Shown: positions 16,693 through 37,538 of the stretch, one piece after another
How the letters are laid out: every line of letters starts with the position of its first letter
Numbering within the stretch: position 1 is the stretch's first letter
From: Acidobacteriota bacterium
GTDB lineage: Bacteria > Acidobacteriota > Vicinamibacteria > Vicinamibacterales > CAVVIG01
Assembly: GCA_003222395.1 (NCBI GenBank)
Contig: QHWB01000040.1
Location: 250,573 to 314,572, forward strand
Direction: 5' to 3'
Length of the DNA stretch: 64,000 nucleotides
The notes under the pieces: model-generated
The model's database searches: none
What the model saw: only the letters and a program-made list of their open reading frames with translations
What the model was told of the DNA's origin: nothing
Program-made: the position numbers and the translations under genes

Positions 16693-20001
<3,309 letters not shown>

Positions 20002-20004
20002 CGT

Positions 20005-21126
20005 CTAACGGTCCTCGATCATCCGAAGAAAATCGTCAAAGAGGTAATCCGCGTCGTGCGGGCCCGGTGAGGCTTCGGGATGATACTGCACGCAGAACAC
20101 CGGACGCGTGCGATGGCGGAGGCCTTCGACGGTTCCGTCGTACAGATTGAGATGCGTCACCTCGACGTCCCCGGGCAGCGTCGTCGGGTCGACGGCGAAG
20201 CCGTGGTTCTGCGAAGTGATTTCGACCTTCCCGGTCTCGAGCTTCTTCACCGGATGATTCGCGCCGCGATGACCGAATTTCAGCTTGAACGTCTTGCCCC
20301 CCATCGCGAGGCCGAGGATCTGATGACCGAGGCAGATGCCGAAGACCGGGACGTCGGACCCGACGAGCCGTCTTGCGTTGTCGATCGCGTACGGCAGGGC
20401 GGCAGGATCGCCCGGCCCGTTGCTCAGGAACACACCGTCGGGTTTCGTCACGAGCAGTTCCGCTGCCGGCGTTCCGGCAGGATAGACGCGCACGTCGCAG
20501 CCGTGCGCGCTCAGCCGGCGCAGGATGTTCCACTTCATGCCGAAATCGTAGGCGGCAATCTTCAGCCGCTGCTTCGCGCGGCGTGCCGGCGTGATGCCGA
20601 ACTGGTCGGGATCCTCCTGCGGCCAGTCGAAGGCTCTGTCCGATGTGACGCCGATGACCAGATCCGATCCTTCCATCTGCGGGATCGATCTGGCGCGTTC
20701 CACGAACGCCGCCGGGTCGAGCCCGCTGCCGGTTGCGACGACGCCGCGCATCACCCCGCCCGATCGCAGCCGGCGCGTGAGCGCGCGCGTGTCGATGTCG
20801 GAGATCGCGACGATGTCGTTGGCGATGAGGTACTCGCGGAGCGTGCCGCTCGCGCGCCAGTTGCTCGCGACCGGCGATTCGTCGCGGATGATGAATCCCG
20901 CCACCTGCGGCTTGCGCGACTCGACGTCTTCAGACGACACGCCGTAGTTGCCGATCTCCGGACACGTCATCGTGACGATCTGTCCGGCATACGACGGATC
21001 GGTGAGCACCTCCTGATACCCGGTCATGCTCGTGTTGAACACGACTTCGCCGGACGTCTCGCCTTGCGCGCCGGCTGCTACGCCTTCGAACCAGGTGCCG
21101 TCTTCTAACGCGAGAATTGCCCGCAT
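20005..21126 (-). CDS. carA: carbamoyl-phosphate synthase small (glutaminase) subunit
   Basis: A 373-residue class I glutamine amidotransferase subunit supplying ammonia to CarB. The N-terminal domain begins [14 protein letters not shown] and has [20 protein letters not shown]. The C-terminal triad is visible: Cys in [16 protein letters not shown], and His and Glu in [14 protein letters not shown]. It is first in carA-carB-comEC. The upstream 179 bp to the pseudokinase gene contain a GC-palindrome repeat, so the promoter lies in or next to repeat sequence; I see no clear attenuator. Confidence 0.98.
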
Positions 21127-21164
21127 GTTTTTCCCCGTGCTCGGGGACCCATCATTTCTTACTT

Positions 21165-21241
21165 CGCGTGGGACCCCACCCCCACGCCCTGACGCGCGCG
21201 GGCCGTAGCCCGCGCGCGTATCTAGAAAAGAACGTCACCAC
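21165..21241. repeat. GC-palindrome dispersed repeat upstream of carA
   Basis: Reads GTGGGACCCCACCCCCACGC, then a CGCGCGGGC/GCCCGCGCG stem and a TAGAAAAGAACGTCACC tail. Its reverse complement parallels the 78-79 bp units at 57.3-57.5 kb. Confidence 0.75.
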
Positions 21242-21305: not shown

Positions 21306-23276
21306 TCATCGTTCGAGTGACGCGGTCACGCGGTTCGCTTCGTTCGCAACCACACGCACCACGGACGACCATCGACGGTAGCCGTCGTACTCCAGGCGCA
21401 CGGCGTGCTCACCGGCGCGGACGGCTGGAATCGACAGCGGCGTCATGCCGATCAACTTGCCGTCGAGAAACACTTTCGCGCCGGTTGGACGCGACTGCAC
21501 CGTCAGATCGCCGACGAACCGGCCGTTGGTCGCCACGGCGGGCGACAGCAGGACGGTGATCGAGACGGCCTCCCGCCGCGGCGCGATGACAATGCGCCGT
21601 TCTTCGGCGATGTAGCCGTCGCGGGTCACGCGCACGCTATGCGAGCCGCGCGCGAGATCGCGGACCACTGCGGGCGTCACGCCGCCGTCGCGGCCGTCGA
21701 TCGAAACGCGGGCGCCCGCCGGCGTCGATCGCACGAGCAGGCGGCCCGGTGTAGCCGTATTGGCGGCATCCGGCTTTGGCCGGATTTCTGAGGCAGATTT
21801 CGCGTTCTCCGCCTGAAGGCCGACGCCACTGTTTGCGGCCGGCGCCGCAACACCACTGTTTGCGGCAGGCGCAGCCGCGCTCGTACCTGTACCCGCACCC
21901 GCAGCCGTACCCGCAGCCGTACCTGCACCCGCAGCCGTACTCGTGGTCGCACCAGTGGCGTCCGGCTTGACCCGGACTTCAGGGATCGTGCTTTCCGTGA
22001 ACTCGCGGCCCGCCGGCGGCGCAGGCGCGGCCGCCTCGGACGACGATCGATCATGCATGCCGAGGCCGTATCCGCCCGCAAATCCCATCGCGAGACCGAT
22101 CCCGAGCGCCGCGATGAGCGGCCACATGGCCGATCGCGCTCGATCGGACCGATCGGCGATCAGAACCGGAGCCGGCGGTTCGGAGCTGCGGCGTTCGTCA
22201 AGCCCCAGGCTCCGCGCCGCGAGCGGCGACCGATCCATCGCTCCGCCGACGATCGCCGGCGCGATTTCTACGTCGCGATACCTCTCCTGCTCCGCTTCGG
22301 CGATCTCGGCAAACCGCCGTTCAGTGGAATCCGCGACGTCACTGGCAACCGGCTTCAATTGGATGTCAGCGACTTCGGACTCTGGTCGGATAATCGGATC
22401 GATCGCGTCACGACGAGATGTACCTTCCGGTTCGGCCAGCGGCACCATCGCCTCGCGCTCGACGCGCGTCGCCGATGTCGCGGTGGACGGTTGCCCGAAC
22501 GCCGTCTCCAATGCGTCGACGAACGAAAGCGCGGTCTGGTATCGATCGGACGGATTGTCGGCGAGCGCGCGCGCGAACACGAGGCTCAGTGCGTCCGCGT
22601 CGGCGCCGGGAATGTCGTCGAGCGACAGCGACGCGTGCGTGCCGGTGCCGCTGATACGGCGGCCCGAGATCAATTCGTAGATCAGCGCCGCGAGGCTGAA
22701 GATGTCGGCGCGTCGATCCCAGTCGGCGCCCGCGATGCGTTCCGGCGCGCTGTAGGGACGACGCACCGGCGCCACGACGCCGACGTCTTCGAGCGACTGC
22801 GCGATTCCGAGACCGGTCACGCCTGTGTCGTCGGCCGACAGCAACACATCGCGTGGATGAAGCGCGCCGTGATACACGCCGGCCGCCGCCGCGAAGTCGA
22901 GCGCGCCCGCCAACTGCGCGGCGACGCGCAGCGCATCCGACGCCGGTGCCGGACCGTACTCGCGAATCGCCAGATCGAGCGATTCGCCGGCGACGAACTC
23001 GTGCGCGAAATACGGGCCGCTGACGCCGGCGGCGAGCGGCGCGGCAATCGAGGGATGCGTCAGGTTCGACGCGATGAGCCGCTCGAATCGACCGACGAGC
23101 CGGCGCACGCGGTCGGGCGCGAGCTCGATTGTGAAGAGCTTGATGGCAACGAGCCGCTCGCGTTCCGCGTCATAACCGCGAAACACGGGTCCGAGTGTTC
23201 CCGCACCGATCTGATGAAGAACACGGAACGGTCCGAACGCGTCAGGGGGCGCAGTGCCGGCAGCTTCCGTGTGCAG
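21306..23276 (-). CDS. membrane pseudokinase with two PEGA domains
   Basis: A kinase-like domain, one membrane helix and two C-terminal PEGA domains. With CTG 23276 as residue 1: glycine-rich loop IGAGTLGPVF at 23-32, VAIK lysine K46, and a retained APE (177-179). HRDLKPxN is HGALHPRD (catalytic Asp replaced by A138, Asn by D143), and DFG is G155-L-G157, so catalysis is very unlikely. The helix MWPLIAALGIGLAMGFAGGY is followed by an Ala/Gly/Thr-rich linker holding two hairpin repeats, then PEGA domains (STPAGARVSIDG and SRPTGAKVFLDG) presumably outside. No ATG, GTG or TTG lies upstream of the glycine loop before a stop. CTG, 7 bases after CAGGAG, is the best start; GTG 23186 would cut the loop. 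Confidence 0.82.
   Translation of the reverse strand: MHTEAAGTAPPDAFGPFRVLHQIGAGTLGPVFRGYDAERERLVAIKLFTIELAPDRVRRLVGRFERLIASNLTHPSIAAPLAAGVSGPYFAHEFVAGESLDLAIREYGPAPASDALRVAAQLAGALDFAAAAGVYHGALHPRDVLLSADDTGVTGLGIAQSLEDVGVVAPVRRPYSAPERIAGADWDRRADIFSLAALIYELISGRRISGTGTHASLSLDDIPGADADALSLVFARALADNPSDRYQTALSFVDALETAFGQPSTATSATRVEREAMVPLAEPEGTSRRDAIDPIIRPESEVADIQLKPVASDVADSTERRFAEIAEAEQERYRDVEIAPAIVGGAMDRSPLAARSLGLDERRSSEPPAPVLIADRSDRARSAMWPLIAALGIGLAMGFAGGYGLGMHDRSSSEAAAPAPPAGREFTESTIPEVRVKPDATGATTSTAAGAGTAAGTAAGAGTGTSAAAPAANSGVAAPAANSGVGLQAENAKSASEIRPKPDAANTATPGRLLVRSTPAGARVSIDGRDGGVTPAVVRDLARGSHSVRVTRDGYIAEERRIVIAPRREAVSITVLLSPAVATNGRFVGDLTVQSRPTGAKVFLDGKLIGMTPLSIPAVRAGEHAVRLEYDGYRRWSSVVRVVANEANRVTASLER
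21768..21785. repeat. ATCCGGC/GCCGGAT hairpin in pseudokinase linker
   Basis: A perfect 7-base stem with a 4-base loop, read in frame as part of IRPKPDAANTATP in the linker before the first PEGA domain. Confidence 0.7.
21960..21977. repeat. GTCCGG/CCGGAC hairpin in pseudokinase linker
   Basis: A second copy of the same type, read in frame as VRVKPDATGATT. Both encode a KPDA peptide, as expected if the same repeat inserted twice in the same frame. Confidence 0.7.
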
Positions 23277-23355
23277 TGAAGGGCTCCTGTGGGAAGGCGC
23301 TTAAGTTTAACATGGTTGACAGTTTACGCAACGCTTTGAGACAGTAGGTTTCCTG

Positions 23356-25014
23356 GTGCGCGTCAACTCATCCTCGGTGACAGACGAGTCGTCCGTACGG
23401 ATTCCGGTCGACGTCCGCCGATTCCCCTGGATTCGCCGGCTCGCGGCCGACTACGCGTACGATTTTGGCGCGGTCGCCCCATTTTTTTCCGGCGATCCAT
23501 CCGATCGGACCGCGTGGGCGGACGCGATCGCGCGCTCGCAGGCGTACGAACGGCGCCGTGCCGACATCGCCGCGGTGATTGCCGGTCAGCAGCAACGCCG
23601 CAACGCGCCTCCGCGCGCACGCGAGGCGGGCCGTCTGCTCGCTGATTCGCGCACGGTCGCCATCGTCACCGGTCAGCAGGCCGGTCTGTTCGGCGGTCCG
23701 CTGTTCACGCTGCTCAAGGCGTTGACGGCGCTCAAGCTTGCCAACCAGGTGTCACGCGATCACAGCGTGCCGGTCGTCGCCATTTTCTGGATCGACGCCG
23801 AGGATCACGACTGGGAAGAAATCCGTTCGTGTACGGTGTTCGACGCCGATCTGACTTCGCGGACCGTCTCGCTTCCGCCGCGTCCCGGCGCCGAACCTGC
23901 CCCCGTCGCCACCATCAAGCTGGACGACGCCGTCGTCGGCGTGCTCGACGAGACCGAGCGCGTCCTGCCGCCGACAGCATTCCGTGAAGATCTTCTGGCG
24001 GAACTGCGCCGCTCCTACGCGCCCGGCACCGGCATGGCCGACGCGTTCGGCCAGTGGCTCGAGCAAGTGCTCGGCGGCCGCGGTCTGGTCGTGTACGACT
24101 CGTCTGACGCTCGGTCCAAACCGCTCGTCAGCAGCGTGTTCGCGCGCGAGCTGTCGATGCCGGGTCAAACCGTCAAGCTGGCGTCGCTGGCCGGTTCGGA
24201 TCTGATCGCGCGCGGTTATCACGCGCAGGTGCATCCGCAGGACGACAGCGCCGCGCTGTTTCGCATCGAAGGCGGCCGCCGCGCCATCCGTCGCCAGGAC
24301 GGTCAGTTCATCGTGGGCGACGAGCGGTTCCCGACCGATGCGCTGCTCCGCCAGGCGACGGAGCGGCCGACCGGTTTCAGCCCGAACGTCCTGCTGCGTC
24401 CCGTGGTGCAGGACACGATTTTCCCGACCATTTGCTACGTCGCCGGCCCGAACGAGCTCGCGTATCTGGGGCAGCTGCGCGGTGTGTATCAGCACTTCGG
24501 CGTGCCGATGCCGCTGATGTATCCGCGCGCCTCGGCGACGCTGCTCGATTCGGCGGCGGTACGTTTTCTCACCAAGTACAAGCTGCCGCTCGAGGCGCTG
24601 CAGGCGCAGGACGAAGCGGCGTTGAACGAGCTGCTGCGGGCGCAGATTCCGCCGGTCGTCGAAGAATCGTTCACCGTCGCGTCGCAGACGATCGAACAAC
24701 AGATGACGCGTCTCGTCGAAGCGATCCCCGCCCTCGATCCGACGCTCGAAGGCGCCGCGCGATCGACGCTCGCCCGCATGCAGCACGATCTCCAGACGCT
24801 GCACGGCAAGATGATCCAGGCGGCCAAGCGCCGCGACGAGACGCTGCGGCGCCAGTTCATTCGCGCCCGCGCGCTGGCCTTCCCCGGTGGCCACGCGCAG
24901 GAGCGCACGATCGGCTTCGTGTCCTTCCTCAATCAGTACGGGCCCGCGCTCGTAGAACGGCTGGACGGGGAGCTCCCCCTCGACCTGGGACGGCATTGGA
25001 TTGTCACGATATAG
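23356..25014 (+). CDS. bshC: bacillithiol biosynthesis cysteine-adding enzyme BshC
   Basis: A 552-residue protein of the BshC family, which joins cysteine to glucosaminyl-malate in the last step of bacillithiol synthesis. Key segments are IVTGQQAGLFGGPLFTLLKA, a Rossmann-like entry, VPVVAIFWIDAEDHDWEEI, and LRPVVQDTIFPTICYVAGPN. A C-terminal coiled-coil portion carries QTIEQQMTRLVEAIPALDP. The length is family-typical. The GTG start has no clear Shine-Dalgarno. It is divergent from the pseudokinase across 79 bp. No bshA or bshB gene is in the window. The stop overlaps the PBP start by 14 bases. Confidence 0.93.
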   Translation: MRVNSSSVTDESSVRIPVDVRRFPWIRRLAADYAYDFGAVAPFFSGDPSDRTAWADAIARSQAYERRRADIAAVIAGQQQRRNAPPRAREAGRLLADSRTVAIVTGQQAGLFGGPLFTLLKALTALKLANQVSRDHSVPVVAIFWIDAEDHDWEEIRSCTVFDADLTSRTVSLPPRPGAEPAPVATIKLDDAVVGVLDETERVLPPTAFREDLLAELRRSYAPGTGMADAFGQWLEQVLGGRGLVVYDSSDARSKPLVSSVFARELSMPGQTVKLASLAGSDLIARGYHAQVHPQDDSAALFRIEGGRRAIRRQDGQFIVGDERFPTDALLRQATERPTGFSPNVLLRPVVQDTIFPTICYVAGPNELAYLGQLRGVYQHFGVPMPLMYPRASATLLDSAAVRFLTKYKLPLEALQAQDEAALNELLRAQIPPVVEESFTVASQTIEQQMTRLVEAIPALDPTLEGAARSTLARMQHDLQTLHGKMIQAAKRRDETLRRQFIRARALAFPGGHAQERTIGFVSFLNQYGPALVERLDGELPLDLGRHWIVTI

Positions 25015-36557: not shown

Positions 36558-37538
36558 ATGTTTTTTCGCGGACAAATCATCGGGAAATACAAGATCCTCG
36601 CGACGATCGGCAGCGGCGGCTTCGGGACGGTCTACCTCGCGGACGACACGTGGATCGACAAGAAGGTCGCGCTCAAGGTCCCGCACAAACAAGGCGTCGA
36701 CTTCGGCGAGCTGCTGCGCGAGCCGCGCCTGCTCGCGAGCCTCAATCACCCCAACATCGTCGCGATCCTCACCGCGGAAAAACAGGACAACGTCTTCTTC
36801 ATCGTCATGGAGTTCGTGCCGGGCGAGACGCTCGAGTCGATCATCGCGCGCCAGGGCGCGCTCGATCTCGCGCGCGCGCTCGACTACACGTGCCAGATCT
36901 CGAACGCCGTCGATCACGCGCACCGCCACGGCGTGCTCCATCGCGACCTGCGACCGTCGAACGTGCTCGTCGCCGAGAGCGGCCTGCTGAAGGTGGCCGA
37001 CTTCGGCACCTCGCGGTTCCTCGAGATCGCGGCGCACGGCACGACCGTGATCGGCAGCCCGCCGTACATGGCGCCGGAACAGTTCCACGGCAAGGCGGTG
37101 TTCGCCTCCGACGTCTACTCGCTTGGCGTGACGATGTATCAGATCCTCACCGGCGGGCTGCCGTACGACACGCCGTCGCCAGCCGATCTCGATCGGCTGA
37201 TGAAGGGCGACCGCGTGACGGCGCCGCGCCTGCGCAATCCGAAGATTCCAAAAGCGATCAGCGACATCGTGATGAAAGCGATGGCGCCGCAGATCCACGA
37301 TCGCTACCAGCGCGCCAGCGAGCTGCTCGACGATGTGATCGCGGCTCGCGCCCTCGGCCCGCGTCGCACGCCGAAGCCCGCCGCGTTCGAGCCCGAAGCC
37401 GTTCTCGTCGACGTGGCGCAGGAAATTCAGAGCCGCCTCAAGGCGCGCGACGCGCCGCAGCCGCGATTCTGCTGGCACTGCCGCAAGCCGCTGCACGCCC
37501 GATCGGATCGCTGTCCCTTCTGCGGCGAAGCGCAGTGA
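36558..37538 (+). CDS. serine/threonine protein kinase with C-terminal zinc ribbon
   Basis: A 326-residue Hanks-type kinase without a membrane helix. All catalytic parts are present: glycine loop IGSGGFGTVYLA (17-28), K40 in VALK, HRDLRPSN (128-135), DFG (148-150) and a MAPE motif before SDVYSLGVTMYQILTGGLPYD. After a Pro- and Ala-rich linker the last 24 residues carry FCWHCRKPL and CPFCGEAQ, a treble-clef-like zinc ribbon. Such C-terminal ribbons are unusual in small soluble kinases and may recruit a partner. It is divergent from rsmE. Confidence 0.95.
   Translation: MFFRGQIIGKYKILATIGSGGFGTVYLADDTWIDKKVALKVPHKQGVDFGELLREPRLLASLNHPNIVAILTAEKQDNVFFIVMEFVPGETLESIIARQGALDLARALDYTCQISNAVDHAHRHGVLHRDLRPSNVLVAESGLLKVADFGTSRFLEIAAHGTTVIGSPPYMAPEQFHGKAVFASDVYSLGVTMYQILTGGLPYDTPSPADLDRLMKGDRVTAPRLRNPKIPKAISDIVMKAMAPQIHDRYQRASELLDDVIAARALGPRRTPKPAAFEPEAVLVDVAQEIQSRLKARDAPQPRFCWHCRKPLHARSDRCPFCGEAQ

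Follow-up and report, generated by a model that had tools for sequence, protein, structure and literature searches.

The window, the 64,000-nt stretch of DNA analyzed here, sits within a 7.74-Mb draft genome and carries on its reverse strand a gene that is predicted to encode a membrane pseudokinase and to be translated from a CTG codon at position 23276. Taken jointly, the pseudokinase assignment and the CTG start are given a probability of about 0.85 on comparative sequence evidence. The window holds one copy of a family of predicted single-pass membrane pseudokinases that extends through one bacterial order. Since the altered residues and the CTG are shared by members throughout that order, chance is ruled out as their source, and shared ancestry accounts for part of the conservation of both. 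Pseudokinases in bacteria and non-AUG starts are already known kinds; of the two features, the CTG start is the greater surprise here.

Gene Structure and Domain Organization

Re-derived base by base, the pseudokinase reading frame opens after the TAA at 23303-23301 and closes at the TGA at 21308-21306 (Table 1). With the CTG counted as residue 1, GAGTLGPV begins at residue 24, VAIK occupies residues 43-46, HGALHPRD residues 136-143, TGLG residues 154-157, and APE residues 177-179, followed by DIFSL from residue 191. An earlier reading of this DNA from its letters alone (the sequence-only reading) had described replacement of the catalytic Asp, the metal-binding Asn, and the DFG Asp by A138, D143, and G155 alongside a retained glycine loop, lysine, and APE. 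All three residue numbers are correct on the re-derived translation, and the retained elements are present at residues from 24, 46, and 177-179.

The kinase region matches Pfam Pkinase (PF00069; E 1.5e-17, 64.3 bits, cut-off 31.7), and two stretches match Pfam PEGA (PF08308; E 1.8e-32, 111.5 bits, cut-off 20.8). The AF2 model of the domain has a complete kinase fold (pLDDT 93.8, pTM 0.89), for which Foldseek returns PknB and PknA as the best PDB matches. The membrane helix and outer PEGA domains described in the sequence-only reading are likewise recovered, the former at about residues 383-407 and the latter as the two Pfam stretches. The linker between helix and PEGA domains is Ala/Gly/Thr-rich and of low complexity, and is encoded by a repetitive, short GGTACGGCTGCGGGTGCGGG-like stretch at window positions 21840-21950 (-). 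The PEGA domains are expected to lie outside the membrane and the kinase domain inside. The predicted architecture is thus a cytoplasmic kinase-fold domain followed by one helix, the low-complexity linker, and, beyond the membrane, two PEGA domains. A second kinase-like gene of the window, at 36576-37436 (+), has 32% identity to the pseudokinase.

Table 1. Features of the pseudokinase locus in window coordinates
Feature	Position	Strand	Remarks
Pseudokinase gene	21306..23276	-	CTG to TGA, 656 codons plus stop
In-frame stops TAA 23309 and TAA 23303	23301..23309	-	Frame closed upstream of CTG
Extended -10-like TGtTAAACT	23304..23312	-	By eye; TGTTACGAT or similar in many same-family orthologs
CAGGAG Shine-Dalgarno (SD)	23284..23289	-	7 nt before CTG
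CTG start codon (probable)	23274..23276	-	Kept across the order
Pseudokinase domain	22467..23240	-	About residues 13-270; predicted bilobal fold, pLDDT 93.8
VAIK, β3 lysine K46	23139..23150	-	Retained in 97/97 orthologs
HGALHPRD in place of HRDxKPxN	22848..22871	-	Catalytic Asp to Ala138, metal Asn to Asp143
TGLG in place of DFG region	22806..22817	-	Asp to Gly155
Single transmembrane helix	22056..22130	-	About residues 383-407
First PEGA domain	21537..21746	-	From about residue 511; predicted periplasmic
Second PEGA domain	21312..21512	-	From about residue 589
carA	20005..21126	-	Next gene in probable operon; 179-nt gap
carB	16693..20001	-
Divergent neighbor called bshC	23356..25014	+	Synteny checked

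Distribution and Gene Neighborhood

A search of 60 relatives gave strong matches in 45 genomes, the window's own included, and further loci were gathered by an HGxLHPRD DNA pattern and alignment of the domain. The resulting comparison covers 97 orthologs with an intact N-lobe from 57 genera and 14 families, all within the order of Luteitalea, which is taken to be Vicinamibacterales of the class Vicinamibacteria, Acidobacteriota. In several family f2 genera, no match was obtained at the thresholds used. A search for related loci in the contigs of the genome returned one distant kinase only. Other Acidobacteriota gave only much lower-scoring matches, at the level of ordinary kinases. Spread of the family past the order was considered and rejected, as none of the HGxLHPRD pattern matches in other parts of the phylum corresponds to a kinase.

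With few exceptions, the pseudokinase gene is divergent from bshC and lies upstream of carA-carB wherever the stretches reach these genes; the window's divergent neighbor is putatively bshC. A median of 2.5 nt separates the pseudokinase gene from carA, and in 21 of 62 loci the two genes overlap by 4 nt, which makes a common transcript likely in most species. The pseudokinase gene is therefore probably the first gene of a predicted pseudokinase-carA-carB operon. In the window, the 179 nt separating it from carA contain strong hairpins. Two of these, GC-rich and located at 21160-21240 (-), have a folding z-score of -3.5 with no T run after them, and could represent an attenuator, a processing site, or a repeat element.

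Loss of Catalytic Residues and Conservation of the Pocket

Among the 97 orthologs, the catalytic Asp position holds Ala in 71, Ser in 20, Gly in 2, Thr in 2, Val in 1, and Asp in 1. The HRD Arg is replaced by Gly and the metal-binding Asn by Asp (D143) in all 97, and the DFG Asp position is Gly (G155) in 96 and Asp in the remaining one. None of the 97 has both the catalytic Asp and the DFG Asp. A protein is classed as a pseudokinase when at least one of the β3 Lys, HRD Asp, and DFG Asp is missing (PMC12599244), and here two of the three are missing. In terms of an active Ser/Thr kinase, the catalytic Asp, metal Asn, and DFG Asp are absent, and the glycine loop and β3 Lys are present. The pseudokinase reading first proposed from the window alone holds order-wide, as the catalytic Asp and the DFG Asp are each absent from 96 of the 97 orthologs. 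Of the HGALHP motif, whose conservation the sequence-only reading proposed to check, the Gly at the HRD Arg position is found in all 97 orthologs, H140 in 96, and Ala138 in the 71 noted above. Orthologs with an intact HRD and DFG, which the sequence-only reading had regarded as contrary evidence, occur only outside the order, as a syntenic kinase of the sister order, and leave the reading uncontradicted. At individual loci, L140 (family f2, genus g68) has HGDLHPRD at the catalytic loop, the sole case of an acidic residue at that site, and L070 (family f9) has DLG at the DFG site.

Other parts of the pocket have been retained. The three loop glycines are present in 91, 97, and 97 of the orthologs, K46 in 97, H140 in 96, and R172 and P174 in 97 each, and by this near or full invariance the pocket is conserved and not decaying. 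Ligand binding or a fixed conformation fits this pattern better than loss of function. It is also conceivable that the domain is catalytic with an altered active site, in the manner of non-canonical kinase-fold enzymes that perform AMPylation or other chemistry. The invariance of K46, H140, R172, and P174, to which D143 (97/97) and G155 (96/97) may be added, is stricter than would be expected of a merely decaying pocket. However, both kinase metal ligands are changed, the αC Glu is a Glu in just 26 of the 97 orthologs, and the N-lobe is missing altogether from some members, so that an altered catalytic activity is considered unlikely. The members without an N-lobe are L175-L177 (family f2, genus g32), which have lost the glycine loop and lysine with it and have kept the C-lobe, the membrane helix, and the place beside carA, with HGxLHPQN as catalytic loop. 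Their existence implies that the nucleotide pocket is not essential in all members.

The CTG Start Codon

In the window frame, the CTG at 23276 is the sole NTG codon found from the upstream stop to the glycine loop, and the next canonical in-frame codon, GTG 23186, is the valine of the glycine loop itself. The frame re-derivation thus agrees with the sequence-only claim that no in-frame ATG, GTG, or TTG precedes the loop and that only a CTG with CAGGAG upstream does. The CTG start had been called probable on that ground, and codon conservation across the orthologs now backs it far more strongly. The codon at this position is CTG in 81 of the 97 orthologs, in about 50 genera, GTG in 9, and TTG in 5; ATG, CTC, CTT, CTA, and TTA are each found in none of the 97. 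In two members of genus g86, NTG is missing from the position and a shifted TTG is apparently used. Across the domains of the same orthologs, Leu is encoded by CTG in 42% and CTC in 38% of cases, and the share of CTG lies between a quarter and a half at eight Leu columns that are well conserved.

An alignment on the start codon, with one sequence per genus, places a purine-rich SD block at -9 to -13, and T2 and G3 of the start codon are invariant in it. Codon positions 1 and 2 are more conserved than position 3 directly downstream of the CTG, and upstream of it no codon-position bias is found, the SD block aside. A GGAG-like purine-rich block occupies the SD place in most orthologs. Since the flanks of the CTG are variable, a DNA-binding site is an unlikely cause of its conservation.

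It might be argued that translation starts elsewhere, at GTG 23186 or, in other species, at a canonical codon upstream, and that the CTG is an ordinary Leu codon or present by chance. No canonical codon comes before GTG 23186 in the window frame, and many orthologs have some upstream ATG, GTG, or TTG in the open frame; in L060, L062, L132, L133, and L184, an ATG or GTG is available two or three codons ahead of the CTG. However, a start at 23186 would cut the glycine loop, though this loop and the block preceding it are conserved. The internal start that the sequence-only reading had weighed against its own proposal is unlikely because the coding sequence upstream of it is conserved. In addition, NTG stands at the start position in 95 of 97 orthologs while other Leu codons vary freely, and lineages in which the codon has changed have TTG or GTG at the same place. 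In 29 orthologs, no ATG, GTG, or TTG at all is found between the upstream stop and the domain, and several have a TGA five codons upstream of the CTG. The ortholog of Luteitalea sp. TBR-22 (L082), a cultured isolate, has an open frame without a canonical start. A start elsewhere is accordingly regarded as very improbable.

Upstream of the gene, the extended -10-like element recognized by eye (Table 1) is not scored by a strict promoter scan; given this putative element, the predicted 5′ UTR is about 20 nt. The upstream ATG at 23313-23311 was rejected as a start, since it is out of frame, lies within the promoter-like sequence, and is unconserved. A structured leader that masks the CTG was also rejected, as the folding energy is no better than that of shuffles, and an Rfam search of the leader gave no match. 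Seven GTG-started loci of family f2 (L139, L142-L144, L146, L147, and L171) lack an SD; an extended -10-like sequence precedes their GTG by about 14-20 nt, and these loci look leaderless or nearly so.

Initiation in the Lineage

In vitro, changes of the initiator tRNA anticodon stem can lower discrimination against CUG (PMC11497404). This raises the alternative that start recognition is relaxed in the lineage through a variant initiator tRNA, in which case many genes would start with CTG. However, the three G-C pairs of a normal initiator tRNA are all present in the corresponding gene of the window's genome. An altered initiator stem suggested by a first pattern, CCGGCTCATAACCGG, was discarded, as the matches are elongator tRNA-Met and the true initiator genes are normal. 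Other genes also start canonically: carB of the orthologous loci begins with ATG in 36 cases and GTG in 2, a canonical codon is present near the start of every carA, and seven kinase paralogs of the window's genome have canonical start candidates. A kinase paralog, L004, had been considered as a second gene without a canonical start and was rejected on finding an ATG 83 codons before the loop. In a comparison by eye of two Luteitalea chromosomes over 200 kb each, with noisy automatic flags and thus as a weak background estimate, the pseudokinase gene is the only conserved coding sequence without a canonical start among 140 ORF pairs. A coding-potential scan for other CTG genes over 464 kb of the window's genome was insensitive, missing the pseudokinase gene itself. 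Relaxed recognition is thus judged highly unlikely.

CUG is a poor start in general. CUG initiation complexes are less stable and CUG initiates at a low level (PMC11497404). A switch from AUG to CUG was recorded for 2 of 61,358 reconstructed ancestral AUG starts in a large survey, CUG-started genes being too few for part of its analysis, and reversion of GUG and UUG to AUG is more frequent than the opposite change (PMC5622118). In the literature covered, which is incomplete, no family of bacterial genes was found to use a CUG start throughout an order. A tree built from 101 domains and rooted on the sister-order kinases requires at least six changes of start codon, and inside the order none leads to ATG. 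Two readings of this persistence may be weighed. The CTG could be merely tolerated, having arisen once and drifted with a strong SD as compensation and its weakness unselected, for which the common GGAG-like SD and the occurrence of low-level CUG initiation speak. Against this, no reversion to ATG is seen over 57 genera despite several first-base changes to T or G, and the survey figures above describe a codon that AUG rarely becomes and weak starts that tend to return to AUG. Mere tolerance is a serious possibility that falls somewhat short of even odds, and selection for weak initiation at the CTG is put at about one chance in two.

Origin of the Family

In the sister order, which belongs to the same class, the place divergent from bshC is taken by a PEGA kinase (L225, L239, and L240) that likewise combines a kinase domain, a helix, and PEGA. 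It differs from the window family in its intact HRDIKPSN and DFG and in an ATG slightly upstream of the kinase domain, from which it is probably started. L241 encodes a similar PEGA kinase with carA 1.7 kb downstream, on a stretch without bshC; where seen in sister-order loci, carA is 1.7-7 kb distant. The presence of an intact syntenic kinase in the sister order gives the direction of change, and both the loss of catalysis and the CTG start are thus probably derived. By parsimony, an ancestral active and canonically started PEGA kinase would have become a pseudokinase in the stem of the order, where the CTG start would also have been acquired and the gene placed next to carA. Since an intact relative occupies the same locus, the two changes, in catalysis and in start codon, lend themselves to study as a pair.

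Proposed Function

The protein is most likely a membrane pseudokinase that serves as an adaptor or sensor, and the scaffold or sensor role suggested in the sequence-only reading fits the predicted anatomy. Its role would not involve phosphotransfer: it would act as an adaptor in the membrane or as an allosteric regulator, and its partner may be CarAB or an active kinase encoded in the genome. Contacts made by the PEGA domains outside the membrane may set its state, with a possible contribution from a ligand bound in the N-lobe pocket, which has been retained. Any direct link with CarAB is doubtful. The weak CTG start may have been retained since the dose is thereby held low, as suggested by the generally poor initiation of CUG together with the absence of ATG.

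A more elaborate proposal would have the CTG be a regulatory element for weak or switchable initiation, under order-wide selection, that fixes how much product the leading gene of the carAB operon yields. Under this proposal, the invariant K46, H140, D143, and G155 would form a repurposed ligand-binding or catalytic site. If true, a membrane sensor would tie the cell envelope to the carbamoyl-phosphate supply for pyrimidine and arginine; this combination is speculative and rather unlikely.

Relation to Known Systems

The pseudokinase resembles PknB and PknA of M. tuberculosis and Stk1 in its kinase fold, single helix, and extracytoplasmic sensor region. However, those kinases bear PASTA domains where PEGA is found here, and the present family has lost the catalytic and metal-binding residues and starts at CTG. 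The NCBIfam PASTA-kinase model scores the pseudokinase at 97.6 bits against a cut-off of 450.

Bacterial pseudokinase families, as described in a 2025 review, comprise five that are wholly pseudokinase (ActPs1, ActPs2, ActPs3, GLW, and DLHK) and two that are mixed (CP1 and DYD); some of these have diverged from all three motifs, and the others retain HRD and/or DFG but have lost the motifs for ATP and metal binding (PMC12599244). As described there, they share with the window family a kinase fold without catalytic residues and, in some cases, a membrane location with a helix after the domain. The window family differs in having kept VAIK and the glycine loop and lost the HRD Asp, the Asn, and the DFG Asp, and it is marked by a signature of its own, HGxLHPRD and RRPY. 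GLW pseudokinases have GLW for HRD and have lost the β3 Lys, whereas the window family has HGA and keeps the Lys. Set against the available motif descriptions of ActPs1-3, CP1, DYD, and DLHK, this third combination of motifs likely defines a new pseudokinase family.

With regard to the start codon, infC is known for a conserved AUU start. The GTG starts of cra and mlc are conserved in Enterobacteriaceae (PMC11445065). In these three genes, as in the pseudokinase gene, a suboptimal start is retained across a family, which is read as dose control; the difference is that the present codon is CUG, rarer than GUG or UUG, and is retained through an order. Kept in so many genera and swapped only for UUG or GUG, never AUG, it constitutes a natural experiment on the persistence of suboptimal starts, and the gene offers a test case for both the roles of dead kinases and the preservation of poor starts. 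Annotation that admits only ATG, GTG, and TTG would truncate or misplace this gene order-wide. A possible second CTG-started gene is an ORF on G000:C14 near 603691-603766 (+), within L258 (EALLRLILRDRDRDTINGDLLEEYRE...), where an SD-preceded CTG lies 25 codons ahead of the first canonical codon.
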